Source of the DNA: a virus
DNA length: 34,039 nt
Reading direction: 5' to 3' (one strand)
Virus record (IMG/VR): IMGVR_UViG_3300025892_002264
Span: 1 to 34,039 of that record
Part shown: positions 9,035 through 34,039 of the stretch, piece after piece
Position numbering within the stretch: the stretch's first letter is position 1
How the letters are laid out: every line of letters starts with the position of its first letter
The notes under the pieces: model-generated
What the model was told of the DNA's origin: nothing
Databases searched by the model: none
The model's input: only the letters and a program-made list of their open reading frames with translations
Made by a program: the position numbers and the translations under genes

Positions 9035-9904
9035 ATGGATCCAAATAAAGACTACTATAACATACTTGGCGTAAGCGCAGATGCAGATGCCTCCACGATT
9101 AAGAAAGCATATCGTAAGTTAGCACAACAAAACCACCCAGATAAAGGGGGTAATGCTGACAGGTTTAAAGAAATAAACGAAGCAAACGATGTGCTATCAA
9201 GCGACAAACGACAAGAGTACGACCACTTACGAAAGTATGGAGCACCACACGCTCATAACTTTGGCCATGGCCCACACGTATGGTCTACAGGTGATGCTGA
9301 ATACCCGTTTAATGTAGAAGATATATTTGGTGAAATGTTTGGAAACGGAAGGAGTCCTTTTAGACAACGCCACCAGCAAACCCGTAATAGAAATATTCAC
9401 ATAAAAATAAACGTATCATTGCGAGAAGCATATGAAGGTTGCACTAAGAGAGTAAAGTATAACGCTGGCAGTGAAACAAAAACGCTAGACGTTCAAATAC
9501 CAAAAGGTGTTATAGCAGGGCAAACGATGCGTATGCGCGGGTTAGGAGATAACGCGGCAAATGGAGCACCTGCTGGTGATTTGCTAATAGCGATTGATGT
9601 AATAAACGATCCGCACTATGAAAGAAGCGGACAAAATTTATTTACAGTTATAAACCTAACCTGCTTTGAAGCAATGCTTGGCACAGAGAAAATTATTAAA
9701 ACATTAACAGAAAAAGAACTAAAAGTTAAAATACCTAATGGCGCTCAACCCGGGCAAAAAATGGTTTTACGAGGACAAGGTATGCCCATTATGGACAGTA
9801 ACGTCTACGGAGATTTATTAGTAGAATTAAAAATAAGCATACCAACAAACTTGACAACAGAACAACAGAATCTAATACAAGACATACTAAAAAATATAAA
9901 CTAA
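9035..9904 (+). CDS. DnaJ/CbpA-like J-domain co-chaperone without zinc finger
   Basis: Residues 1-70 form a J domain (DYYNILGVSADADASTIKKA) with the essential HPD at 34-36, the motif that stimulates Hsp70 ATPase. A Gly/Phe/His-rich linker follows (about 70-110), then two C-terminal client-binding beta domains with VQIPKGVIAGQTMRMRGLG and VKIPNGAQPGQKMVLRGQG. The Cys-rich zinc-finger domain of true DnaJ is absent, as in CbpA (E. coli CbpA is 306 residues; this is 289). It heads an operon with peptide deformylase and ClpA. It presumably recruits the host DnaK, since no hsp70 gene is in the window. Confidence 0.9.
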   Translation: MDPNKDYYNILGVSADADASTIKKAYRKLAQQNHPDKGGNADRFKEINEANDVLSSDKRQEYDHLRKYGAPHAHNFGHGPHVWSTGDAEYPFNVEDIFGEMFGNGRSPFRQRHQQTRNRNIHIKINVSLREAYEGCTKRVKYNAGSETKTLDVQIPKGVIAGQTMRMRGLGDNAANGAPAGDLLIAIDVINDPHYERSGQNLFTVINLTCFEAMLGTEKIIKTLTEKELKVKIPNGAQPGQKMVLRGQGMPIMDSNVYGDLLVELKISIPTNLTTEQQNLIQDILKNIN

Positions 9905-9912
9905 ATATTATT

Positions 9913-10365
9913 ATGGAGCGAAAACTTAAACTTACTAAAAGAGTTCTACGGAATAAAGCTAAAGAAGTAAAATTTGATAAGCCATTCCAACTACAAAAGT
10001 TAGCAGTAGATATGATTTCTTTTATGGTTGAAAACAAAGGCATTGGTCTAGCCGCACCTCAAGTAGGTATAAGCAAGCGGTTGTTTGTTATGTATGGCGA
10101 AGATTTAAAGGATGGATTTATGTATTGTTTTAATCCATCTATAGAAGAAGAGAGCGATCAGTGCGAACTAGGACAAGAAGGATGTTTAAGTTTTCCAGGA
10201 GAAATAATAGAAGTAAGCCGACCCAATTCCATTAAAGTAAAATTTTGTGATTATTTAGGCAACGAAAAAAGAATGGATTTAAAAGGATTGTCTGCAAGAT
10301 GCTTTATGCATGAACTAGACCATCTAGATGGTATAACTTTTCACGAGAGAGAAAACAATGTTTGA
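9913..10365 (+). CDS. def: peptide deformylase
   Basis: The 150-residue enzyme removes the formyl group from nascent proteins. All three family motifs are intact: GIGLAAPQ (43-50), EGCLS (89-93, Cys91 a metal ligand) and HELDH (133-137, His133 and His137 as ligands and Glu134 as catalytic base). It is shorter than the E. coli enzyme (169 residues) because it lacks the C-terminal helix, a known feature of marine phage deformylases. It starts 8 nt after dnaJ and its end overlaps clpA by 8 nt, so the three genes form one translational unit. Confidence 0.95.
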   Translation: MERKLKLTKRVLRNKAKEVKFDKPFQLQKLAVDMISFMVENKGIGLAAPQVGISKRLFVMYGEDLKDGFMYCFNPSIEEESDQCELGQEGCLSFPGEIIEVSRPNSIKVKFCDYLGNEKRMDLKGLSARCFMHELDHLDGITFHERENNV

Positions 10366-12667
10366 TCAAAACCCCGAGATAGAAGCAATAGTAGAAGAAG
10401 CAATGGAAATTGCTTTAGACTATAATCACAAATTTGTTGCAACTGAGCATCTATTGTTATCATTATTGAGAACAAAGAACTTTAAAACAATGCTAGAAGA
10501 GTTTGGCGTTGATTACAATAATTTAGTTAACGAACTTGAAGGCATACTTGAATCTCGTTTTGAAGATATTGTAGATGTAACAGAAGTGCGTCCAAAGAAA
10601 ACACATGCACTAGAAAGAATTTTTAGCAGAGCATTTACGCAAGTATTGTTTAGTGGTAGACAAAAGTTCCAAACAATAGATCTATACGTTAGTATTACCA
10701 ACGAACATAGTTCTTATGCTTCATGGATTATGAGAAAATATGGAGTTCTACCCGAGGACCTTATTGAATTTTATAACAAAACTTATTGTGGTCCAAATGA
10801 TAAACAAGGTATACAAGACAGAGCGTTACAGATACTTGAAGAGTATTGCACTAATTTAAACAACCTCGTTAATGAAGAAAAGATTGATCCCGTTATCGGA
10901 AGACAACGCGAGATTAACGATATTGCTGAAACACTTGCTCGCAAAACAAAGAACAATGTTATTATGGTGGGCGACGCAGGTGTTGGTAAAACAGCAGTTG
11001 TAGAAGGACTAGCATATCGTATACAACATGAAGACGTTCCGCAAAATCTACTAGGCAATACTATTTTTAGTTTAGAGATTGGCTCATTACTTGCTGGCAG
11101 TAAGTATAGAGGTGACTTTGAAGAAAAGATTAAACATATTTTACACGCACTGGAAAAAGTAAATAACGCAATATTGTTTATTGATGAGGCACACATGATG
11201 AGTGGTGCTGGTCAGACCGGCAGCCAAGGTGGTGTTGATTTTAGCAATATGATAAAACCTGCGTTATCACGCGGAGCAATTAAAGTTATTGCGAGCACAA
11301 CTTGGGAAGACTTTAGAAAAAGTTTTGAGAAAGATAGAGCGTTGATGCGTAGATTCTTTAGACTAGTTATTGATGAACCATCACGCGACGATGCTGTGGA
11401 TATTTTACAAGGTATTAAAAAGTATTATGAAAAATTCCATAGTCTTGAAATACACAACGAGGCAATAGAGACAGCAGTTGATAAGAGTATTAAGTTTATC
11501 ACGGATAAAAAACTACCAGACAAGGCTATTGATCTTATTGATACCGCTTGCGCGAAACGCAGAGTGAGTGGTAGTAAAGATACTGTTATTACTAAAGAAG
11601 ATATTCTACAACAAGTAAGTAAAATTGCTCGTATGCCTATTGATCAACTTCGTTCTGAAAAAACTGAGAACGTTGTGAATCTTGAAGGCAACCTTAAAGA
11701 CGTTATTTTCGGACAAGACAATGCTGTTGATAAGTTATGTGAGAAAGTCTACATCGCTAAAGCAGGACTTAAAGATTTGAATAAACCAACTGCTTCGTTT
11801 CTATTTACTGGGCCAACTGGTGTTGGTAAAACAGAACTATGTAAACAATTGTCACATTTATTAAACGTAGAACTATTGCGTTATGACATGAGTGAGTATC
11901 AAGAAAAGCATACAGTTGCTAAACTTATTGGTGCTCCTCCAGGCTATGTTGGCTTCGAGGATTCCGAAATGGCTGGTGGTAAACTGCTAAATGATATTGA
12001 GAAAGATCCACACGCAGTATTGCTACTAGACGAAATTGAAAAAGCACATCCAGATGTTGCTAATGTTATGCTACAAATAATGGATAATGGTTACTTGAGT
12101 GGTAGTAATGGCAAACGTGTTGATATGCGTAATATTATTCTTGTTATGACGTCAAACTTAGGTGCGGCTGATATGGAACGTAATAGTATTGGTTTTGGCA
12201 CTTTAGAAAAAGAAGGCGAGGATGACAAAGCAATCGAAACATTCTTCCCTCCGGAATTTAGAAACAGACTCGATGCTATTGTTAAATTTAATAAGTTAGA
12301 TAAAGACGATATGCTATTAATTGTCGACAAGTTCATAGGAGAGTTAAATACATTACTGCTGGAAAAGAATATTTTAGTTAAACCAACACAAACTATGAAA
12401 GAGTATTTGTTAGATAAAGGCTGGAATCCAAAGATGGGTGCCAGGCCACTGAGTAGAGTTATTAATGACAAGATTAAAACTCCGTTGGCACAAAAGATAC
12501 TTTTTGATAACATAAGAAATGCTATTATAGAAGTAGATTTAGACGATGAAGAAAATGTTAAATTTGACATTAGCGGTGAAAAAGAACAACAAACGCTACC
12601 AGACGAAGTTGTAAATAATGAAGGTGTTATTGTATTAGATCAATTTAAGCCTGAATCAACTGACTGA
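10358..12667 (+). CDS. clpA: ClpA-type AAA+ unfoldase
   Basis: The 769 residues match ClpA (758 in E. coli) in length and order. An N domain (1-140, VATEHLLLSLL) is followed by a first AAA+ module (Walker A GDAGVGKT at about 206-213, Walker B ILFIDEAH, FEKDRALMRRFF). A second AAA+ module follows (Walker A GPTGVGKT at about 485-492, DMSEYQEKH, GAPPGYVGF, Walker B VLLLDEIEKAHPDV, FPPEFRNRLD). No long ClpB middle domain is present. The loop after Walker B2 holds SIGFG (about residues 609-613). This corresponds to the IGL/IGF tripeptide that docks on ClpP, so the protein should be a protease partner and not a disaggregase. A ClpP gene lies at the right end of the window. Confidence 0.93.
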   Translation: MFDQNPEIEAIVEEAMEIALDYNHKFVATEHLLLSLLRTKNFKTMLEEFGVDYNNLVNELEGILESRFEDIVDVTEVRPKKTHALERIFSRAFTQVLFSGRQKFQTIDLYVSITNEHSSYASWIMRKYGVLPEDLIEFYNKTYCGPNDKQGIQDRALQILEEYCTNLNNLVNEEKIDPVIGRQREINDIAETLARKTKNNVIMVGDAGVGKTAVVEGLAYRIQHEDVPQNLLGNTIFSLEIGSLLAGSKYRGDFEEKIKHILHALEKVNNAILFIDEAHMMSGAGQTGSQGGVDFSNMIKPALSRGAIKVIASTTWEDFRKSFEKDRALMRRFFRLVIDEPSRDDAVDILQGIKKYYEKFHSLEIHNEAIETAVDKSIKFITDKKLPDKAIDLIDTACAKRRVSGSKDTVITKEDILQQVSKIARMPIDQLRSEKTENVVNLEGNLKDVIFGQDNAVDKLCEKVYIAKAGLKDLNKPTASFLFTGPTGVGKTELCKQLSHLLNVELLRYDMSEYQEKHTVAKLIGAPPGYVGFEDSEMAGGKLLNDIEKDPHAVLLLDEIEKAHPDVANVMLQIMDNGYLSGSNGKRVDMRNIILVMTSNLGAADMERNSIGFGTLEKEGEDDKAIETFFPPEFRNRLDAIVKFNKLDKDDMLLIVDKFIGELNTLLLEKNILVKPTQTMKEYLLDKGWNPKMGARPLSRVINDKIKTPLAQKILFDNIRNAIIEVDLDDEENVKFDISGEKEQQTLPDEVVNNEGVIVLDQFKPESTD

Positions 12668-15232: not shown

Positions 15233-16363
15233 ATGACAGGATGTTGCTTAATACCAAAACAAATTATCGAGATTGAAACCAACGGAGATATATATCTTTG
15301 TGGTTGTTCCGAATATCTACCTAAAGTCGTAGGCAACATTTTAGATATAGATTCGTTTGAAGAAGTTCATCAACTTGAATTGGCTAAAAAAGTTATACAT
15401 TCAACCACTATTTCTAAAACATTTGAGCATTGTGTTAAGATTCCACTTAGTGGTAACCTTCTTTGCGGGTTTGACAAAACCCATGATAAAACGTTAATGA
15501 AAGGTGTAGATGGTACAAAACCAGAAGAAATTAAAATAGTGGTCGGTTATGATGATAGTTGTAATTTAGAATGCCCTAGTTGCCGTTTATACCCATTATC
15601 AAACTATACAAAAACTGTAGGCAACGTACTATTTAATAGTGACAAATTTAGCAATACTGATCTTATATATAAAGCTATACAGAAACACGGAAAAGAATCA
15701 GTGTACAATGTTGCAAAGAGATACAAGACTATTGCTAGAAATTTTAATGATATAAAAGAACTTGATAAAAAAGTAGTACAATTAATTAACAATTATAAAA
15801 AGCCTGCACAAATTGAATTTGGAGCAAGTGGTGATGCATTTTTCAGTCAATCAGTAAAAAATTGCATTGACAAATTAGAATATAACTCGGAGCATCGATA
15901 TAGTTTCAAAACCAATGGACTAATGATGAAGTCGATTATTCCCACATTAAAAATAAAAGATTCTATTGCCAATATTAACATCAGCATTGATGCAGGAACT
16001 AAGGAAACACATGAACGATTAAGAACTGGAAGTAGTTGGAATCAACTTTTAAGCAATATAAATTGGTTAATGCAACTTCCTAATAGACCCACAGTCATGG
16101 GCGCGTTCGTATTGCAAAAAGACAACTTTCGAGAAATACCTAAAATTTTAAAGTTATTTTTAGGCGATATTGGTATAGATAATGTATATTTTATACCTTT
16201 AAGAAAACCCTCTCACTGGTCCGATGCAGAATATACAGAAAAAAATATTTTATCAAAACTACATCCCTGCTATCAAGAATTTACTGAAATAATTAATTCT
16301 ATACCTAGGGTCTACAAAGATCGCACAGATATATTCAAATATTTACAATATTTACAAAAATAA
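15233..16363 (+). CDS. radical SAM enzyme with N-terminal SPASM-like region
   Basis: Cys110, Cys114 and Cys117 (CNLECPSC) form the CxxxCxxC site that binds the SAM-cleaving 4Fe-4S cluster. The barrel continues with IEFGASGDAFFS, YSFKTNGLMM, NINISIDAGTKETHERLRTG and GAFVLQKDN. Residues 4-80 (CCLIPKQIIEIETNGDIYLC, then GCSEY, VVGNILDIDSFEEV, C67, C78) follow the pattern of a SPASM auxiliary-cluster domain, which normally lies after the barrel. Enzymes with SPASM domains usually modify peptides or proteins. The gene stands alone between a terminator and a new promoter, and has no clear Shine-Dalgarno. The substrate is unknown. Confidence 0.8.
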   Translation: MTGCCLIPKQIIEIETNGDIYLCGCSEYLPKVVGNILDIDSFEEVHQLELAKKVIHSTTISKTFEHCVKIPLSGNLLCGFDKTHDKTLMKGVDGTKPEEIKIVVGYDDSCNLECPSCRLYPLSNYTKTVGNVLFNSDKFSNTDLIYKAIQKHGKESVYNVAKRYKTIARNFNDIKELDKKVVQLINNYKKPAQIEFGASGDAFFSQSVKNCIDKLEYNSEHRYSFKTNGLMMKSIIPTLKIKDSIANINISIDAGTKETHERLRTGSSWNQLLSNINWLMQLPNRPTVMGAFVLQKDNFREIPKILKLFLGDIGIDNVYFIPLRKPSHWSDAEYTEKNILSKLHPCYQEFTEIINSIPRVYKDRTDIFKYLQYLQK

Positions 16364-22272: not shown

Positions 22273-23139
22273 ATGCCATTCACATTGTCGATTGGTGTAA
22301 CTTACAATTGCACTTCTAAAAAAATTCCAACCTGGAAATTTTACATCATTGATCGCTACGGTAATATACCAAATGGCGATATGATGTATAACACTCTTAT
22401 CGAACATGATGTTCAAACTGGAATTCCAGAAGAAGGTTATCATTTTAAGTCAACTGTTGATATAGAAGATACTACAGAAAATGAATATACTTTGGTTATC
22501 GAACACCTTGGTGCTGATTACTCGAGTGATTATGATGAGGGACCATTTGGTATTGATATAGACTATGTTAGTTTATGTGAAGTGGATGTCTGCGATTTAA
22601 TACATCGTAGAGGGCATACATATTTAGATTGTACGCAAAATATCAATTATATCTTTGAACAATTAAACAATGATAATTTCTCTGTGGATATATTCCCGTA
22701 TGAAGTTAATAATAACAATAAAAACTATAGACTTTTAAATTACAGACATGATAAAGTAGTGGGCAATAATCCTAAGGTGTTTAATAACGAGACAGAAGAA
22801 TATACTGAATTCAACGGTTGTTTAATAACTGATGATGGTTATGTTATTAAAGGCAATAAGTTATATTACGATACTACTGATAATCTTTATTTTATAGCCA
22901 AACATGCAAACAATAAAAATCTTTATGTAGAAGGTGAGATTTATATTCCTAAATTTACATACAACGGTGTTGATAATGTAGTAATAGAAAATGTGTCGGA
23001 ACACATTCATAAAAGCAGATTAATTCATCATATACCAAATAGTTCTTGTTTAAGCCAAAATGGTAAATGGAAACTAGTATTTAAAACTCCACTCTATGGG
23101 TGGATCACAGATAATATTTTTGGCAATGATCTTGCTTAA
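22273..23139 (+). CDS. beta-sandwich-type phage protein, longer relative
   Basis: The 288-residue protein repeats the plan of its neighbour: [14 protein letters not shown], then [20 protein letters not shown], then [19 protein letters not shown]. The C-terminal half is Asn/Tyr-rich with an ending ([20 protein letters not shown]) like that of the 21678 product (YSIEFKCPFYLWLLEELL). This shared ending supports descent from one ancestor. The stop codon overlaps that of the convergent guaC gene. Confidence 0.6.
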
Positions 23140-23146
23140 TTGCCAA
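23120..23146. terminator. inverted repeat across two convergent stop codons
   Basis: TTGGCAA (23120-23126) and TTGCCAA (23140-23146) are perfect 7-base arms around a 13-base loop that contains both stop codons. It is followed on the + strand by only a broken T-run (TAGTATTCTTTT). It is a weak candidate terminator for the convergent pair. Confidence 0.35.
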
Positions 23147-24251
23147 TAGTATTCTTTTCGTATATTCCGTTATGTGTTTGTGTGCAACGTACAAAGGTGG
23201 TACATTTAGATAACTGTTTAAGTTTGTTAGCACCAGCGTAAGTACATGTACTTCTCACTCCACCTAAAATATCTTGAATTGTATTAGCAACCGCACCACG
23301 ATACGGAACTAGTACTTCCCTTCCTTCAGAAGATCTGTATTCTTTTAATCCACCAAAGTGTTTTTTATTAGCGGCAGTGCTACTCATACCATAAAACTGT
23401 ACAAACTTTTTTTCTTCTGTTACGAACGATTGACTGCCTACCAGCCTGCTCTTACTAGAGAGTTCATTCGTTGCGTATTGCTTGGTAATAATATTGCCTT
23501 CTCCTTCATCGTGTCCAGCAAGCATACCACCAAGCATCACAAAGTCAGCACCTCCTGCGAACGCCTTCGCAATATCACCAGGGTTAGTACATCCCCCATC
23601 AGCAATAATATGCCCACCAAGCCCATGAGCCGCGTCTGCACATTCAATAACAGCAGACAACTGAGGATAGCCAACCCCAGTTTGGAGCCTAGTAGTACAT
23701 ACGCTACCAGGACCGATTCCAACTTTAACGATATCCGCTCCATTTAATATTAACTCCTCTGTCATTTCTCCGGTCACTACGTTGCCGGCAATAATTGTTG
23801 TGCGTGGATATTCATCTCGAAACTTCTTTACAAACTCACTAAAGCGTTCTGAATATCCGTTTGCTACGTCAATGCACACATAACGCACTTCTGTATTTTT
23901 TCTAACTTCACGCCACTTTTCAAAATCACTATCCGTAATTCCAATACTCATCGCTACAGTATTAAGTTTTTTATAATGTGCGTCTTTAAAGTAATCAATA
24001 AGTTCTTTTGTATTATAAGTTTTTACAAGACACGTAAACAAGTTTAACTCTGTAAGTTTGTCGGCCATAGTAAACGTACCAACGCCATCCATATTGGATG
24101 CCATAATTGGAATAGTACTATACCTCCAATCACTGTTTCTGTATCTAAACTCTCTGTTTAAACTTACTTCTTTGCGGGATCCTAGCGTTGAACGCTTGGG
24201 ACGAATAAGCACATCTTTAAAATCTAACTTAACATCTGTTTCAATTCTCAT
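23136..24251 (-). CDS. guaC: GMP reductase
   Basis: The only reverse-strand gene. The product (371 residues from ATG 24251) has [17 protein letters not shown] near the start, [25 protein letters not shown] with the catalytic Cys185, and [20 protein letters not shown]. It has no CBS domains. The segment after the Cys ([13 protein letters not shown]) is that of GMP reductase rather than IMP dehydrogenase. The enzyme converts GMP to IMP with NADPH, recycling guanine nucleotides toward adenine, which would suit an AT-rich phage. An upstream in-frame ATG at 24287 lies in the -35 element, so 24251 is the start. Confidence 0.93.
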
Positions 24252-24258
24252 AACATAT

Positions 24259-24287
24259 ATTATATATGCTATCGTAAAATAAGTCAA
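24259..24287 (-). promoter_or_regulatory. sigma-70 promoter of guaC, leaderless
   Basis: On the reverse strand TTGACT (24287-24282) and TATAAT (24264-24259) are 17 bases apart. The predicted transcript start is 24252, one base before the ATG at 24251. Confidence 0.7.
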
Positions 24288-26429: not shown

Positions 26430-27545
26430 GTGATTAAATTAACTGACTACGCAATTGGCGGATACGAACGAGTAGTACGTGCTACTGACTCCACTACCGG
26501 ATTAGATGCATGTATAGCCATTCACAGCACACAGTTAGGTCCTGCTATCGGCGGTTGCCGTTATATGGAATATAAAGACTTTGATGAACAACGCTACGAT
26601 GCGTTGCGTTTATCGAAGCAAATGACGTATAAAAATACACTTGCAGGATTACATTATGGTGGCGGAAAAACCACCATTAATTCAAGAGCAGGTAAAAAAA
26701 GTCCGGAGTTTTGGAAATCATTTGCTGAAGCATTGGATCGTTTAAACGGCATTTACTATACTGCTGGCGACATAGGAACTACGCAAGATGACTTGTTAGA
26801 GTTACATAAGCATACCCAATATGCTTTAGGTTATCGTGGTAAAGACTCAGGATGGGCAACTGCTTATGGAGTATATAATTCAATAACTGGAGCATTTGAC
26901 TACTACGCTGGTCGCAAGAACGCCACAACCGCTGAATATGCATTATTGAACCGATCTGTAGCAATAATTGGTTTAGGAAAGGTAGGAAGTCGTTTAGCGC
27001 ACTTTCTAACATCACTGCAACCTGGCCTTACAGTTTATGCGTACGACATTGACAAGCAGAACTATGATAAAGCAAAAGAGCGTTTCAATAAATTGAAATT
27101 TAATGGCATGAGTCCGTCTCGTCTGCAATGGTGTGATAGTATAGAAGAAATTAACCAACTTCCAGTTGATATATATGCTCCTTGTGCTACAGGCGGTATG
27201 ATCACTGAACAATTTGCGAGCGAGACAAGAGCAAAAATAATATGCGGCGGAGCAAACAATCAGTTACTCGGCGATGCATCACAAATATTAAAAGATCGCA
27301 AAATATTATATGTTCCTGATTATTTGGCAAACTGTGGAGGAATAGTACAAGTATGTTCTTCATATAATATATCACATGATATAACGGCCAGTCTCAAAAC
27401 TGAATGGGATCATCCACTTGTAAAAGAAAAACTTGAGAACATTAGCACAAAAGTATACGACTTACTGTCTCAAAGTAAAATACAAAATAAACCCACAAAT
27501 ATTGTTGCAAAAGAAATAGTAGAAGGAAAGTTAAAATACTTGTAA
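26430..27545 (+). CDS. leucine dehydrogenase-type amino acid dehydrogenase
   Basis: The 371-residue product belongs to the Glu/Leu/Phe/Val dehydrogenases. It has IHSTQLGPAIGGCRYMEY, MTYKNTLAGLHYGGGKT with Lys68 and Lys80 at the positions used in bacillary leucine dehydrogenases, and GDIGTTQDDL. The NAD site is VAIIGLGKVGSRLAHF (Gly181-Gly186), followed by APCATGGMI and GGANNQL. Length also matches (about 365). The reaction is reversible oxidative deamination of a branched-chain amino acid to its 2-oxo acid, giving NADH and ammonium. It uses a GTG start. It lies between a DsbA-like gene and the DNA polymerase, with its own terminator-like repeat after it. Confidence 0.9.
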   Translation: MIKLTDYAIGGYERVVRATDSTTGLDACIAIHSTQLGPAIGGCRYMEYKDFDEQRYDALRLSKQMTYKNTLAGLHYGGGKTTINSRAGKKSPEFWKSFAEALDRLNGIYYTAGDIGTTQDDLLELHKHTQYALGYRGKDSGWATAYGVYNSITGAFDYYAGRKNATTAEYALLNRSVAIIGLGKVGSRLAHFLTSLQPGLTVYAYDIDKQNYDKAKERFNKLKFNGMSPSRLQWCDSIEEINQLPVDIYAPCATGGMITEQFASETRAKIICGGANNQLLGDASQILKDRKILYVPDYLANCGGIVQVCSSYNISHDITASLKTEWDHPLVKEKLENISTKVYDLLSQSKIQNKPTNIVAKEIVEGKLKYL

Positions 27546-27575: not shown

Positions 27576-30230
27576 ATGTATGTAGACGCTTACCTAGACA
27601 GAGATCATGACAAAATACATGTCGCTGAGCGAGTCGACGGGCAACGCATCTATAAAGAATTTCCAGTAGAATATGTTTTTTATTTCGATGACCCCCGCGG
27701 CAAATTTCAAACTATACACGGCTTTCCTGTAAATCGATTTCACACTAAAAGCAAAAAAGAGTTCTCTAGAGAACTTAAAATAAACCGCGGTAATAAGGTT
27801 TATGAGAGTGATATTAATCCAATATTTAGATGTCTTTCTGAAAACTACATTGGAGCGGAATCCCCTCAGTTAAATATTTGTTATGTTGACATCGAGGCAG
27901 ACTTTGATCCGGAAAAAGGATTTAGTGAGCCAAGCGATCCTACTGCGCCTGTTACTGCTATTACTGTTTATTTGTCTCAATTGGAACAATTAATAACACT
28001 TGCGTTACGCCCTAAAGGTATGCCCGAAGATATTGGCAACAGTATTGGTAAAAACTTTGATAACACTTTCATCTTTGACTATAAAGATGAAAAGAAATTA
28101 CTTGAAACATTTCTTGATCTTATACAAGACTCTGATATTATCACTGGTTGGAACAGTGAAGGGTATGACTTACCATACTTAATTAATAGAACTACTAAGG
28201 TGTTAAGCAGAGATGACACTCGACGGTATTGCTTATGGAACTTGCATCCTAAAAAATACGAATATGAGAAGTTTGGAGGTAAGCAGGAAGGATATCAATT
28301 ACATGGCAGAGTACATTTAGATTATTTAGAACTATATCGCAAGTATACATATCATGAAATGCATTCCTATTCGCTTGATACTGTATCCGAATATGAACTA
28401 AACGACAGAAAAATTCCATACGAAGGCACACTTGACCAATTGTATAACAGAGACTTTGAGAAATTTATTGAATACAACAGGCAAGACGTTATGCTTATTG
28501 TGCGTATGGATGAGAAACTAAAGTTTATTGACCTCGCTAATGTGTTGGCACATGAAAACACAGTGCTTCTTCCTACAACAATGGGAGCAGTTGCGTTAAC
28601 AGAACAGGCTATTATTAATGACGCCCACGCCCAAGGACTTATTGTTCCTAATAAGCCAGACAGAGATAGTGAAAAAGCAACATCAGCGGCAGGTGCTTGG
28701 GTTGCTAAACCTCGCAAAGGACTACATAAATGGATCGGATCTGTAGATATTAACTCTCTGTATCCGTCTGCTTTAAGAGCACTTAATATGAGTCCCGAAA
28801 CTATTATTGGGCAACTACGTCCTACAATGACATTAAACCATATTAAAACTATTATAGATAATGGTAAATCTCACGCTGACAGTTGGGAAGGACTATTTGG
28901 ATCGTTTGAGTACGAAGCAGTAATGGGTCGGGAAAAGAATGTAGAGATTACAGTCGACTGGGAAGATGGTAAAATAGAAGTAATGACTGCTTTTGATGTC
29001 CACAAGATGGTATTTAATAGCGATAATAAGATTATCCTCACAGCAAACGGAACATTGTTTAGAAACGACAAGAAAGGTATTATTCCAGGATTACTGGAGA
29101 AGTGGTATGCAGAACGTAAAGTCATGCAAGGCAAACTAAGAGAAGCAAAGACTCCAGAAGAGATTGCTTTTTGGGATAAAAGGCAACTTGTTAAGAAAAT
29201 TAATCTAAACAGTTTATATGGTGCGTTACTTAATCCTTACTGTAGGTTCTCTGATAAGAGACTAGGGCAAAGCACTACGCTATCTGGTAGAACTATTACT
29301 AAGCATATGGCGAGTTATATTAATAAAATTATAACAGGCCAGTACGACTACGAAGGAGACTCTATAATATATGGCGATACTGACTCTTGTTATTTTTCTG
29401 CTTATAATGTTCTCAAAGAAGATATAGACAATGGAAATATTCCGTGGGATAAAGAAGCGGTTATCGAGTTGTACGACAAAGTAGCAGACGAGGTTAACAA
29501 AAGTTTTCCTGCGTTTATGAACCAAACATTTAATTGTAACAATGAATTAGGTGAGATTATTGTATGCGGCAGGGAAATTGTTGCAAGTAGCGGATTGTAT
29601 ATTACTAAAAAACGTTACGCGGCACTTATATATGATTTAGAAGGCAAACGCACAGACCAAGATGGCCCTGGTAAGGTAAAAGCAATGGGTATGGATCTTA
29701 AGAGATCAGATACTCCAGTGTTTATGCAAGATTTTCTAAATATATTATTGCTTGATGTGCTTACAGGAGTGCAGGAATCAGAAGTGATTGCTAAAATTAA
29801 AGAGTTTAAATATGAATTTGCCGACAAGCCTGGCTGGGATAAAGGTACTCCGAAGCGTGTGAATAATTTAACAATGTACACAAAAAAAGAAGAACGACAA
29901 GGCAAGGCAAACATGCCCGGGCACGTTAGGGCGGCAATGAACTGGAATACATTACGAGTTATGAACGGCGACAAGTACAGTATGCAGATTATGGACGGTC
30001 AAAAGACAATTGTTTGCAAACTTAGAAACAATCCGTTAAATATGACAAGCGTTGCGTATCCTATTGATGAGCAACGGCTACCACAGTGGTTCAAAGATCT
30101 TCCGTTTGATCACACAGCAATGGAAGAAGCAATTATTGACAAAAAAGTAGGAAATTTATTGAATGTTCTTAACTGGGATTTGCGGCAAGGCACCTCCAGA
30201 AGCACGTTTGATGATTTATTTGAATTATGA
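27576..30230 (+). CDS. 43: family B DNA polymerase (T4 gp43-like)
   Basis: 884 residues against 898 for T4 gp43. The proofreading exonuclease has CYVDIEADFD (Asp105, Glu107), ITGWNSEGYDLPYL and YNRQDVMLIVRMD. The polymerase has VDINSLYPSALRALNMSPET (motif A near residue 391), KKINLNSLYGALLNPY (motif B) and IIYGDTDSCYFS (motif C near 597-604). All catalytic carboxylates are present, so both activities should work. It overlaps the next gene by 4 bases (ATGA). It is the phage replicase, working with the sliding clamp downstream. Confidence 0.97.
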   Translation: MYVDAYLDRDHDKIHVAERVDGQRIYKEFPVEYVFYFDDPRGKFQTIHGFPVNRFHTKSKKEFSRELKINRGNKVYESDINPIFRCLSENYIGAESPQLNICYVDIEADFDPEKGFSEPSDPTAPVTAITVYLSQLEQLITLALRPKGMPEDIGNSIGKNFDNTFIFDYKDEKKLLETFLDLIQDSDIITGWNSEGYDLPYLINRTTKVLSRDDTRRYCLWNLHPKKYEYEKFGGKQEGYQLHGRVHLDYLELYRKYTYHEMHSYSLDTVSEYELNDRKIPYEGTLDQLYNRDFEKFIEYNRQDVMLIVRMDEKLKFIDLANVLAHENTVLLPTTMGAVALTEQAIINDAHAQGLIVPNKPDRDSEKATSAAGAWVAKPRKGLHKWIGSVDINSLYPSALRALNMSPETIIGQLRPTMTLNHIKTIIDNGKSHADSWEGLFGSFEYEAVMGREKNVEITVDWEDGKIEVMTAFDVHKMVFNSDNKIILTANGTLFRNDKKGIIPGLLEKWYAERKVMQGKLREAKTPEEIAFWDKRQLVKKINLNSLYGALLNPYCRFSDKRLGQSTTLSGRTITKHMASYINKIITGQYDYEGDSIIYGDTDSCYFSAYNVLKEDIDNGNIPWDKEAVIELYDKVADEVNKSFPAFMNQTFNCNNELGEIIVCGREIVASSGLYITKKRYAALIYDLEGKRTDQDGPGKVKAMGMDLKRSDTPVFMQDFLNILLLDVLTGVQESEVIAKIKEFKYEFADKPGWDKGTPKRVNNLTMYTKKEERQGKANMPGHVRAAMNWNTLRVMNGDKYSMQIMDGQKTIVCKLRNNPLNMTSVAYPIDEQRLPQWFKDLPFDHTAMEEAIIDKKVGNLLNVLNWDLRQGTSRSTFDDLFEL

Positions 30231-31186: not shown

Positions 31187-31918
31187 ATGAAAGACATTTT
31201 AACAGACGTTATTAGCCACACACATTCTTTAGGCTTCTTAGATATTGTAAAAGTATCTGGTACTGAAGAAGGCACTGTGATTGAATCAATGGAGGAAGGT
31301 AGAGCAGTTGTTATGGTTGCTGATACACATGATCCTATTGCTGAATTTATTGGAACATTCGGTATGCCTAATCTAAATAAACTAGATACCCTGCTAAAGA
31401 TTCCTGCTTACAAAGAAGAAGCAAAGTTAGAGATCAATCAGCAAGAACGTAATGGCGTAGTAATACCAACAGGTATTCATTTTGAGACTAAGGAAGGAGA
31501 TTTCCAGAACGACTATAGATTTATGAACGCGGAAATCATTGAAAACAAACTAAAAAGTGCTAAGTTTAAGTTATCGGAATGGGATATTGAGTTTGAACCA
31601 TCCGTACATTCCATTCAAAAGTTTGCTTGGCAAGCACAAGTAAACTCAGAAGAAGATGTGTTTACTGTCAAAACTGATAGCAAAAACTTGGTATTTGAAT
31701 TTGGTGACCACAGCACACACGCAGGACAATTTACATTTGAGTCCAGCGTAGGCACTGCACTTAAAGGTAGTTGGTCGTGGCCAGTTCAGTTTGTACAAAA
31801 AATACTGAACCTAACTGGTGACAAAGTCATGTCTCTAAGCGACAAGGGCGCAATGCAGATTACTGTAGATAGCGGATTAGCAAAATACAAATATATCCTT
31901 CCAGCACAGAGTAAGTAA
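31187..31918 (+). CDS. 45: DNA polymerase sliding clamp (T4 gp45-like)
   Basis: The 243-residue protein (T4 gp45 is 228) is acidic with repeated beta strands and short helices, the plan of processivity clamps. MVADTHDPIAEFIGTFGMPN then LNKLDTLLKIP resembles the T4-like clamp region before the first domain turn, and the C-terminus KYKYILPAQSK is the usual exposed strand. It encircles DNA as a ring and tethers polymerase. In T4-like phages gp45 also activates late transcription, which agrees with the late boxes. It has its own perfect promoter and a shared base with the next gene (TAATG). Confidence 0.75.
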   Translation: MKDILTDVISHTHSLGFLDIVKVSGTEEGTVIESMEEGRAVVMVADTHDPIAEFIGTFGMPNLNKLDTLLKIPAYKEEAKLEINQQERNGVVIPTGIHFETKEGDFQNDYRFMNAEIIENKLKSAKFKLSEWDIEFEPSVHSIQKFAWQAQVNSEEDVFTVKTDSKNLVFEFGDHSTHAGQFTFESSVGTALKGSWSWPVQFVQKILNLTGDKVMSLSDKGAMQITVDSGLAKYKYILPAQSK

Positions 31919-33405
31919 TGAGATCTGATTTTAGGGATACGCAGAAAGATTACGCAACATACTTGCCAGCGATTAGTTCTTTCTATTCCGCATACGTAGG
32001 GAAACAAAGATATGAGGAATTTGTTCCTACTGATAGAATTCCGTCTAGGTTTACCAACGGCATAGAGGGACTAAACTTTCTTAATATGGACGAAGGATAC
32101 TTTAAGTATCCGTGGGCACTATATTCTGCAGGACATGCTAATATGGATCTGGAAAAGTTCGTTCCTAAGGAAGATATGGTAAGAAACAGAGACTCATTTC
32201 CAAACAATGTTCTCGTTGGTGACAGTGGTGGATTCCAAATCTCTAAGGGAGTTTGGGAAGGACAATGGTTAGAACCGTATGGCGTAGATCAAAAGACTGA
32301 CAAACTTCGTGAAACAGTTTTGCGATTTTTAGAAGGCACATTTGATTACTCTATGGTATTAGATTTGCCTACTTTTAGTGTTGCTCATGCTGATAAACAT
32401 GGTATTGATACTTGGCAAAAGTGTTTACAAGGAACTCTTATTAATAATGAGTTCTTTGCCCAAGCAAGAGAGCCAGGTGCTACAAAGTTTCTTAACGTAT
32501 TACAAGGTAATAATTGGGCTCAATGTGAAGAATGGTATGACGCAGTAAAGCCGTATAGCACTGGAGAGAAGGCAGACTTTGAAGGTTGGGCATTAAGTTC
32601 TATTAACAAACGTGATGTTGAAATAGCATTACGGCGTATAATTAGAATGAGAGAGGATGGCCTATTAGAAAAAACAGAATGGATGCATTACTTAGGAACT
32701 GGCGAACTATTATGGAGTATTGTATTAACTTGCTTTCAACGCAATTTACGAGAAACAGTAAATCCTAATATCACATTGTCGTATGATTGTGCATCGCCTT
32801 TTTTAGCAACTGCTTACGGAACGATATATACTAGTATACATACAGAACATTTACGTAAAGGTAATTGGACTTATAAAATGATCAAGGCTATTGATGATAA
32901 AAAATATTCAACGGATACGAGAGTTTTTGATTACAACATACATTATCCTGATGCTAAATGGGAACCAAGTGTGATTAGTGAACTACTTGAAATGAAAGAT
33001 GTTTGTCCGTATGGTCCTGGTGATTTAAATAAAATAGGAAAGGAGGGGAGAACGAGTTGGGATAGTTTTAGTTATGCACTACAAATGGGACATAATGTCT
33101 ACATGCATATACTAGCAACACAAAAAGCAAATGAGTGTTACGACAGTGGAATTTATCCGTCCGCACTTGTTGCTCCTAATGGAGCAACGTTTACTGATGT
33201 CGTAAATGACGTATTTAAACATAAAGATTATAACAATGCTATAGCAGAAATTGAAAAATATAGCAAATGGTTTGCAAGAATACAAGGCACACATACCTCT
33301 GAAGCAATGGCAGACGAGATGGGTATAGAACCTATGGGAATGGAGCAACCTGTTGTAAAAGAAAAATACAGCGCAAGTAAAGCGTTTAACGAACTATTCG
33401 ATTAA
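31918..33405 (+). CDS. TGT/DpdA-like transglycosylase
   Basis: The 495-residue product carries VLVGDSGGFQIS (Asp102 in DSGGFQ), the general acid/base region of tRNA-guanine transglycosylases. It also has YSMVLDLPTF, FLNVLQGNNW, WALSS, WMHYLGTGELLWSI and LSYDCASPF with Asp290, which fits the nucleophile of the D-C-x-P motif. The CxCxxC zinc site of bacterial Tgt is not seen, and the protein is about 120 residues longer. In phages this group (DpdA) exchanges guanine in DNA for a 7-deazaguanine, protecting against restriction. It sits between the clamp and ClpP genes, in the replication block. A tRNA target cannot be excluded. Confidence 0.8.
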   Translation: MRSDFRDTQKDYATYLPAISSFYSAYVGKQRYEEFVPTDRIPSRFTNGIEGLNFLNMDEGYFKYPWALYSAGHANMDLEKFVPKEDMVRNRDSFPNNVLVGDSGGFQISKGVWEGQWLEPYGVDQKTDKLRETVLRFLEGTFDYSMVLDLPTFSVAHADKHGIDTWQKCLQGTLINNEFFAQAREPGATKFLNVLQGNNWAQCEEWYDAVKPYSTGEKADFEGWALSSINKRDVEIALRRIIRMREDGLLEKTEWMHYLGTGELLWSIVLTCFQRNLRETVNPNITLSYDCASPFLATAYGTIYTSIHTEHLRKGNWTYKMIKAIDDKKYSTDTRVFDYNIHYPDAKWEPSVISELLEMKDVCPYGPGDLNKIGKEGRTSWDSFSYALQMGHNVYMHILATQKANECYDSGIYPSALVAPNGATFTDVVNDVFKHKDYNNAIAEIEKYSKWFARIQGTHTSEAMADEMGIEPMGMEQPVVKEKYSASKAFNELFD

Positions 33406-33416
33406 GGAGCAATAGA

Positions 33417-34039
33417 ATGGCAGCCAAAAAAGCAAAAGCAAAAGTACAAACACAAGAAGAAGTTAACGAAGACAAGAGTGGCCCAGCGGGCCCGCCAGTT
33501 GGATCAAGAGGTCAACCATTATCAGGTGACCCACTATATGACAACCATATACATATGTTTATGACTGGATTTAACGAGGAATCATGTGCGGTAGCAATTC
33601 GCTTTATTCTCGAGAAAAACATGCTACCAAAGAAACAGCGACCAAAGCATTTAACACTTATGATTAACAGTCCAGGCGGCGCAGTACATGCGGCTTTTGC
33701 TCTTATTGATGTTATGAAAGGATCTGCTATTCCTGTCAGAACTGTAGGGTTAGGAATGATTGCATCATGTGGTGTGCTTACATTTATGGCAGGGCAAAAA
33801 GGACACAGAATTATTACTCCTAATACTTCTATTCTATCACACCAATATAGTTGGGGATCACGTGGTAAGGAACACGAACTATTTGCAGTTGTACGTGAGT
33901 TCGAAATGTCAACAGATCGTATGATTACGCACTATAAAAAATGTACTGGACTTTCTGAAAAGAAGATTCGTGAAGTATTACTTCCACCACAAGATGTGTG
34001 GCTAAATGCTGAGGAAGCAGTGGAATATGGCATTGCTGA
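33417..34039 (+). CDS. clpP: ClpP-type serine protease, 3' end cut by the window
   Basis: The frame is open to the last base (207 codons plus two bases). Residues 1-40 are a Lys/Ala- then Gly/Pro-rich extension. The ClpP fold follows: LMINSPGGAVHAAFALIDVM, then GLGMIASCGV with nucleophile Ser117, ILSHQYSWG with His142, and PPQDVWLNAEEAVEYGIA with Asp193. The triad is complete, and the chain ends close to the usual C-terminus (E. coli ClpP is 207 residues including its propeptide). GGAGCAATAG precedes the ATG. The His environment (SHQYSWGSRG) is diverged from the usual HQP. It can pair with the ClpA encoded at 10358-12667 or with a host unfoldase. Confidence 0.9.
   Translation, partial: MAAKKAKAKVQTQEEVNEDKSGPAGPPVGSRGQPLSGDPLYDNHIHMFMTGFNEESCAVAIRFILEKNMLPKKQRPKHLTLMINSPGGAVHAAFALIDVMKGSAIPVRTVGLGMIASCGVLTFMAGQKGHRIITPNTSILSHQYSWGSRGKEHELFAVVREFEMSTDRMITHYKKCTGLSEKKIREVLLPPQDVWLNAEEAVEYGIA

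Follow-up and report, generated by a model that had tools for sequence, protein, structure and literature searches.

The viral DNA analysed here, a linear IMG/VR record of 34,039 bases (IMGVR_UViG_3300025892_002264; its full length is called the window), carries a dpdA-like gene whose product is a guanine transglycosylase of the TGT/DpdA type, as supported by its modelled fold, by profile comparison and by its catalytic residues. In related viral loci this gene is followed by genes for the synthesis of a 7-deazaguanine base and by a glycosyltransferase (GT) gene, and in our samples the GT and QueC exclude each other. From these sequences and models we propose that 7-carboxy-7-deazaguanine (CDG) is made, inserted into phage DNA by the transglycosylase and glycosylated, a reading which, taken as a whole, we place just short of an even chance.

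Assignment of the transglycosylase

A preliminary description of the window had called the gene a DpdA/TGT-like transglycosylase, and the fold, the matches to DpdA2 and Tgt profiles and the catalytic residues agree with this. Database searches with the single protein gave little. Pfam (E up to 1), NCBIfam and PADLOC returned nothing, nor did phmmer against the sequences of the PDB (E up to 10). PHROG yielded nothing beyond a weak match near the C-terminus (phrog_8668, E 0.006), and BLASTP found no similarity to DpdA2 of Vibrio phage nt-1 (YP_008125322). Relatives with 30-37% identity were found by tblastn in 13 of 50,697 phage records, namely 11 of the PA5oct/Paride group, Vibrio phage 2.275.O and Sinorhizobium phage Phosso. 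With a profile of eight sequences, a relative was found to be encoded in 594 of the 599 IMG/VR stretches among the matches listed (hence at least 594), 80 of the stretches with relatives being kept for further work, and in 39 of 114 stretches from genome contigs. A family profile of 51 sequences, which are 52 representatives minus L133 and L134 plus the window sequence, has no relative among the PDB sequences (a single chance match, E 1.3).

As neither direct sequence searches nor searches with hidden Markov models (HMM) returned the nt-1 DpdA2, a comparison of profiles with profiles was needed. In this comparison the family matches DpdA2 at 97.3% (E 2.5e-11) and Tgt at 96.0% (E 4.9e-9), the latter with a Tgt set biased towards motif agreement by leaving out 4 of 18 Tgt loci that had no open reading frame (ORF) with the string DSGGFQ. 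Sixteen unrelated control profiles from the same locus set reach at most 6.3%, and the TIM-barrel enzyme IMPDH 0.15%. Two of 13 DpdA2 proteins are matched directly by the family profile (L353, E 3.5e-7; L374, E 1.3e-7). DpdA1 was considered as the nearest kin and rejected, its profile of seven sequences showing 0.4% with the window family; this is a weak test, since DpdA1 also misses Tgt (0.2%). In Campylobacter phage CPt10, reportedly a DpdA3 carrier, the family profile finds no match. As a separate observation, the record of Vibrio phage V07 (MT135025.1, 349,331 bases) is matched by both DpdA1 and DpdA2 queries and may represent two co-assembled phages.

An AlphaFold2 model of the protein, computed from the 51 sequences, has a pLDDT of 89.2 and a pTM of 0.88. 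In Foldseek, TGTs make up 19 of the best 20 PDB matches and the bacterial DpdA 7ui4 takes rank 20, all with E of 1.4e-4 or lower; other barrels begin after these, at E 0.03. Alignment to the T. maritima TGT by VIA-align covers 299 residues (Z 20.0, 4.3 A), and the archaeal TGT reaches Z 19.1. Profile search and superposition had both been suggested in the preliminary description, together with the caution that the protein might match nothing but an unrelated TIM barrel. Both point to the TGT/DpdA enzymes, an already known kind of which the window protein is a diverged representative.

Catalytic residues

Residues were compared in an alignment of 129 sequences including the window, some of them near-identical, after 3 of 132 matches had been dropped for having fewer than 380 amino acids. 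The ORF, Asp102 in DSGGFQ and Asp290 in YDCASP lie where they had initially been placed (Table 1), and because both Asp columns are D throughout, the two motifs are not due to chance. Their roles, general acid/base for Asp102 and nucleophile for Asp290, are presumably those of the corresponding residues in Tgt. The zinc site of Tgt had not been seen at first, and its CxCxxC motif is indeed absent from the window protein; the HN pair belonging to the zinc region is retained at 392-393, with His392 being H in 127 of 129 sequences.

A loose pattern for the motif around His257 fits 7 of 7 DpdA1, 7 of 7 DpdA2 and 1 of 14 Tgt sequences, most Tgts having R-YLMGVG at this place. According to passages of Hutinet 2019 (PMC6884629), DpdA2 is devoid of the equivalent of His196 of the phage 9g enzyme. 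Judged by motif, the nt-1 DpdA2 has His235 at the corresponding place (VH-LG). Given the published statement, motif and profile alignment make the equivalence of His257 to His196 of 9g likely but not proven.

Base-making genes beyond the contig end

It had been noted that folE, queD, queE and queC do not occur in the window, and the base had accordingly been expected from the host or from genes located elsewhere. The first part is borne out: Pfam scans of 40 window proteins (E up to 1 for one part and up to 0.01 for the others, small ORFs left out) revealed no FolE, QueD, QueC or TGT family, and PF01702 and the QueE-like protein of phage Paride had no match anywhere in the window when used as queries. 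The second is settled on the phage side by contig L004, which shares 98.36% identity with the window across 12,125 nucleotides, up to the last base of the window. The base-making genes are missing from the window because the contig stops, while L004 runs on into them. There, folE, yhhQ, queD and a queE-like gene are found 3.5 to 8 kb past the window end, with the GT gene starting at about 2.3 kb and folE at about 3.5 kb. The presence of a GT related to the queuosine mannosyltransferase QTMAN, and the lack of a detectable QueC beyond the contig end, could not be visible from the window.

Among 89 viral loci, 36 extend at least 9.5 kb downstream. All 36 have the GT, which always lies 3′ of dpdA on the same strand, and FolE (34), a purine phosphoribosyltransferase (31), QueE (27), QueD (10) and YhhQ (4) follow in frequency; QueC is found in none. 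For 13 representatives at 75% identity, the counts are 13 for the GT, 12 for FolE, 8 for the phosphoribosyltransferase, 6 for QueE, 5 for QueD and again 0 for QueC. A protein of 396 amino acids near queD, considered as a replacement for QueC, occurs in 7 of the 36 loci and matches only phrog_25854, a family of unknown function. Vibrio phage 2.275.O codes for QueF, YhhQ, QueC and FolE 3′ of its dpdA relative, and in Paride, where the dpdA-like gene is Paride_0115 and the GT gene Paride_0116, a queE-like gene lies 3 kb 3′ of the former. In a set of 11 records tested, FolE and QueD were found in 10 each.

Mutual exclusion of QueC and the glycosyltransferase

FolE, QueD and QueE lead from GTP to CDG, which QueC then converts to preQ0 (passages of PMC13329287). 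Among the 11 records, QueC (PF06508) is restricted to 2.275.O and nt-1, and it has no match in the complete genomes of Paride and Phosso. None of six long contigs of the window family has QueC over the cut-off, three of them showing sub-threshold matches (E 0.001-0.005).

Both genes were then compared across 18 records. The GT is present in 11 of these and absent from 7 (2.275.O, nt-1, 9g, pf16, Moby, VH7D and CPt10), and QueC scores over the cut-off in precisely those 7 and in none of the 11; one GT record, Xanthomonas phage X1, has a sub-threshold QueC match (E 6.6e-4). Such a split would arise by chance once in 31,824 if the records were independent, and the records are related. The GT was known beforehand in the six long contigs, in Paride, in Acidovorax phage ACP17, in X1 and in Synechococcus phage BUCT-ZZ01; what the comparison added is that the QueC records lack it and that Phosso has it. 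The difference is found within the window family as well as within DpdA2.

Larger samples were seeded with either gene and consist of the best-scoring 80 matches each, which are not random samples. QueC was found in 0 of the 80 GT-seeded loci and the GT in 0 of the 80 QueC-seeded loci. Flanks of 6 kb on either side are available for 38 GT-seeded loci. Of these, 36 each have DpdA, FolE and QueE and 14 have QueD, and all 38 have at least one of FolE, QueE and QueD. When 7 contigs that had already been used (listed by hand) are left out, DpdA is present in 33 of 35. On a Bacteroidota contig, L133, a DpdA-like gene is accompanied by genes resembling queE, queD and queC, and the GT is missing. We consider it probable that the inserted base is made without QueC.

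The glycosyltransferase

In 15 records the GT is annotated as a glycosyltransferase twice and as hypothetical 13 times. With E of 0.1 or lower (best 9.6e-6), 18 of the 27 GTs compared match Glycos_transf_1, and a mixed GT profile finds the glycosyltransferase 8xsg among the PDB sequences (E 9e-4). A model with a pLDDT of 90.6 matches GT-B enzymes with Z up to 25.7. From the annotation of Phosso, the gene after dpdA had been guessed to be a DNA primase; this is ruled out, as profiles and model are GT-B-like. GT relatives adjoin DpdA2 in ACP17 and X1 and lie near it in BUCT-ZZ01, and in Phosso the GT is located between the annotated clamp and FolE.

The GTs fall into two homologous groups (99.2%, E 9.4e-20), with group A in L004 and group B in its 78% identical relatives L005-L007. 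The two genes at the same position ahead of folE (14462-15541 in L004, 14098-15312 in L005) thus belong to different groups, as if they had been swapped locally.

As reference for QTMAN we used 20 bacterial loci with PF12038. The group-A profile matches QTMAN in hhalign at 98.75% (E 1.4e-16, 23% over 171 columns). Its scores lie at 28.7-54.0 bits for all 20 QTMAN loci and do not exceed 10.2 for loci of ordinary GT4 enzymes, 25 of 30 of which had any scored ORF. In hhalign comparisons with single sequences, the 20 QTMAN loci reach at least 93.7% and the 25 ordinary GT4s at most 36.9%. A strict pattern of the P-x-R-L-A-Y-x-E type is found in 13 of the 20 and in 0 of the 25. By these sequence comparisons the catalytic domain is of the GT4 type and nearer to QTMAN than to other GT4s, which applies to group A and more weakly to group B.

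A distant GT (24.6%) was noticed in Xanthomonas phage PhiXhv-15 (L170, 8878-9981), where it adjoins annotated genes for a GlmS-like aminotransferase and a GlcNAc-malate deacetylase. This phage is matched by neither window DpdA nor DpdA2 queries, and its GT possibly belongs to another sugar system.

Bacterial genome loci

The GT is in view in 12 of the 39 genome loci, four of them phage-like (L096-L099) and eight alphaproteobacterial (L100, L104, L112, L114, L120, L121, L122 and L126). In the latter, no polymerase, FolE, QueD or QueE is in view, and among the 39 loci YhhQ occurs in exactly these eight. Shimia ponticola WX04 has YhhQ, GT and DpdA genes in consecutive order (L122, 6261-9311). Together these genes would be consistent with a precursor that is imported and then inserted and glycosylated. 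These units may be prophages or resident islands; in another locus, L107, a phage integrase is encoded near the DpdA-like gene.

Comparison with known systems

The nearest known enzyme is DpdA2 of nt-1 and its relatives, which shares the profile match, the Asp pair and the VH-LG motif; its neighbours include FolE and QueD, as in the loci of the window family, and the family member of 2.275.O has 30% identity to it over 76 amino acids (E 8e-4). It differs from the window family in having QueC and no GT, and in the missing BLASTP similarity to the window protein. Enterobacteria phage 9g (DpdA1) has a similar layout (polymerase - clamp - DpdA - FolE - QueD - Gat-QueC - QueE) and the His196 motif, but its profile is unmatched, QueC is present and there is no GT. 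The bacterial DpdA 7ui4, a DNA preQ0 insertase, was found by Foldseek at E 1.4e-4 and yet has 14% identity and superimposes poorly on the whole model (TM 0.35/0.41). Bacterial Tgt (2ash; Zymomonas TGT) has the fold and the Asp pair in common with the window protein (Z 19-20), whereas the window protein lacks CxCxxC and PF01702 and the His257 pattern does not fit 13 of 14 Tgts. PA5oct carries a DpdA of the window family (36.7%) and was stated in 2021 to have a system for deazaguanine synthesis and incorporation; passages of this description (PMC7824862) make no mention of a glycosyltransferase or of the absence of QueC. QTMAN resembles the group-A GT in the catalytic-domain profile and differs in PF12038, and the acceptor must differ.

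Proposed pathway and its alternatives

FolE, QueD and QueE, which in L004 are encoded past the contig end of the window, would convert GTP to CDG. In the absence of a recognisable QueC, the carboxylate of CDG would stay and would not be converted to the nitrile of preQ0. The transglycosylase would excise guanine from DNA, with Asp290 as nucleophile and Asp102 as acid/base, and would insert the 7-deazaguanine; that this enzyme places a 7-deazaguanine into DNA we consider very probable. The QTMAN-related GT-B enzyme would add a sugar to the inserted or to the free base, and for a glycosylated inserted base the chances appear balanced. CDG, perhaps at its carboxylate, would be processed either by QueC or by the GT. 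A precedent for a carboxylate as handle of DNA hypermodification is carboxymethylcytosine (passages of PMC12783734). The purine phosphoribosyltransferase of the cluster might recycle the released guanine, a guess that we hold to be rather doubtful. Our confidence in the pathway as a whole is limited because it cannot exceed that in the glycosylation step and because group-B GTs resemble QTMAN weakly.

Several observations weigh against this pathway. The FolE, QueD and QueE matches of L004 are all under the NCBIfam cut-offs, and QueD and QueE are seen in just 10 and 27 of the 36 extended loci. QueC could be supplied by the host, DpdA is in view in only 13 of the 80 QueC-seeded loci, and no GT is in view in 27 of the 39 genome loci. 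An HMM search with the 51-sequence profile misses the nt-1 DpdA2 in the nt-1 genome. For the GT, the group-A profile alone finds no glycosyltransferase among the PDB sequences (one chance match, E 1.2), and group B matches QTMAN in hhalign at only 54.8%. PF12038, the N-terminal QTMAN domain, is found in 0 of 27 GTs at E up to 0.1, for which reason we do not call the GT a QTMAN. QTMAN mannosylates queuosine in tRNA at a cyclopentene hydroxyl (passages of PMC12518689). The GT fold is a common one, and its PDB match list includes tetrahydrobiopterin glucosyltransferases (5zer, 9v0l). Since CDG is without the cyclopentene hydroxyl of queuosine that QTMAN uses, the acceptor of the GT is unexplained. 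Finally, 4 of 20 phage records matched by the ACP17 GT (Ep032, PhiXhv-12, -15 and -16; 24.6%) have no match to the window DpdA or to DpdA2.

The strongest alternative, which we still regard as unlikely, is that DpdA inserts an unglycosylated 7-deazaguanine (CDG, a decarboxylated form, or preQ0 completed by a host QueC) and that the GT acts elsewhere, for example on a FolE/QueD pterin or on a surface glycan. The tetrahydrobiopterin glucosyltransferases among the structural matches would suit this view, and Cui and colleagues are said to have reported dCDG as a natural phage DNA base in 2023. FolE, QueD and QueE are enough for CDG (passages of PMC13329287), and plain deazaguanines are known from phage DNA (passages of PMC6884629). 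It fits less well that eight of the 39 genome loci, each of them from alphaproteobacteria, have GT and YhhQ beside the DpdA-like gene with FolE, QueD and QueE not in view, that GT and QueC never occur together in any sample, and that the GT scores QTMAN over ordinary GT4s.

Modification of host or phage tRNA, as by bacterial Tgt, is improbable. Fold and Asp pair are common to Tgt and the HN of the zinc region with His392 is kept, but the zinc motif and a PF01702 match are lacking and the DpdA-type His occurs in 129 of 129 sequences. The gene sits among replication genes, and 18 of 18 bacterial genomes searched, each with a family member, possess a Tgt of their own. The top profile match is DpdA2, and the DNA of phage nt-1, which encodes a DpdA2, contains dPreQ0 (passages of PMC6884629). 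Gene location, DpdA-type His and the link to DpdA2 make DNA, not tRNA, the likely substrate.

An unrelated TIM barrel carrying both motifs by chance would agree with the missing Pfam, NCBIfam and PDB sequence matches, but has next to no probability given the jump in E from the TGT/DpdA matches (1.4e-4 or lower) to the remaining barrels (0.03 or higher), the IMPDH control and Z values of 19-20 to TGTs.

Gene surroundings in the window

Two genes, for a methyltransferase-like and a clamp-like protein, separate the family-B polymerase from the dpdA-like gene, and ClpP follows, so that the described position close to polymerase and beside ClpP is confirmed (Table 1). The window stops 634 bases past the dpdA-like gene, within the ClpP gene. 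A clamp-like homologue lies 5′ of dpdA in each of the 87 viral loci that extend 1.5 kb or more upstream, and a family-B polymerase is found in 82 of them. In Phosso, the dpdA-like gene lies apart from polymerase and clamp, ahead of genes annotated as primase and DnaB-like helicase.

Table 1. Positions of the genes and catalytic codons discussed, in the window and in contig L004.
Feature	Position	Strand	Remarks
dpdA-like gene, 495 amino acids	31918..33405	+	ATG start; predicted DNA-guanine transglycosylase subfamily related to DpdA2
Asp102 codon (DSGGFQ)	32221..32223	+	Presumed general acid/base; D in 129/129
Asp149 codon	32362..32364	+	D in 128/129; aligned with Asp of Tgt M-x-LDE
Gln196 codon (LQG)	32503..32505	+	Q in 127/129; aligned with Tgt QGG
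His257 codon (MHYLG)	32686..32688	+	H in 129/129; motif as at phage 9g DpdA His196
Asp290 codon (YDCASP)	32785..32787	+	Presumed nucleophile; D in 129/129; aligned with Tgt FDC
Family-B DNA polymerase	27576..30230	+	PF00136, phrog_262
Methyltransferase-like protein, 303 amino acids	30227..31138	+	PF13489; in block of 36/87 viral loci
Clamp-like ORF, 243 amino acids	31187..31918	+	Directly 5′ of dpdA-like gene; phrog_12062 (function unknown); putative clamp
ClpP-like protease	33417..34037	+	PF00574; truncated at contig end
Glycosyltransferase, 359 amino acids	L004 14462-15541		Group A GT
FolE	L004 15603-16289		Passes Pfam cut-off; below NCBIfam cut-off
Purine phosphoribosyltransferase	L004 16310-16852		Nearest to purine phosphoribosyltransferases of known structure
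YhhQ precursor transporter	L004 16888-17508		Passes TIGR00697
QueD	L004 18085-18561		Passes Pfam cut-off; below NCBIfam cut-off
QueE-like protein	L004 20076-20948		phrog_2076 E 1.8e-52; 35% to Paride QueE-like protein; below NCBIfam cut-offs

Some other genes of the window deserve mention. An IMPDH/GMP reductase-like gene (23136-24287, minus strand; PF00478, E 3e-71) lies inside a plus-strand block and might serve purine supply. A Glu/Leu/Phe/Val dehydrogenase-like gene (26430-27545; PF00208, PF02812) is found immediately 5′ of the polymerase. A radical SAM-like protein (15233-16363) matches PF04055 slightly under the cut-off (E 2e-6) and PF13186, and is not matched by the Paride QueE-like query. 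A TctA-like tricarboxylate transporter protein (819-2327; PF01970, E 4e-86) is unusual phage cargo. Protein quality-control genes code for DnaJ, peptide deformylase and a Clp-type AAA+ protein (9035-12667) in addition to ClpP.

Significance

To our knowledge, four further 7-deazaguanine DNA bases were added in 2023, none of them with a sugar. In Hutinet 2019 (PMC6884629), the bases listed are preQ0, preQ1, ADG and archaeosine. A GT partner of DpdA or a swap for QueC found no mention in the open-access literature searched, mostly titles and passages, and the GT-coupled pathway without QueC may be a new kind of DNA modification. One carrier of a family member, Paride, is known for killing dormant Pseudomonas (passages of PMC10761892).

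The number of IMG/VR stretches encoding a relative among the matches listed indicates that sequenced viral contigs often carry the system. Tentatively, and with somewhat less confidence than for the pathway itself, we suggest that glycosylated 7-deazaguanine occurs in the DNA of many phages, forming a large group, and of some alphaproteobacteria, CDG being the branch point between QueC and a QTMAN-like GT. Phages with QueC would make bases of the preQ0 type, and those with the GT would keep the carboxylate and add a sugar. The replacement of QueC by an enzyme resembling queuosine mannosyltransferase predicts a sugar-bearing guanine analogue in DNA. If this is true, DpdA and the GT would do in DNA what Tgt and QTMAN do in tRNA, with the sugar perhaps directly on the carboxylate.

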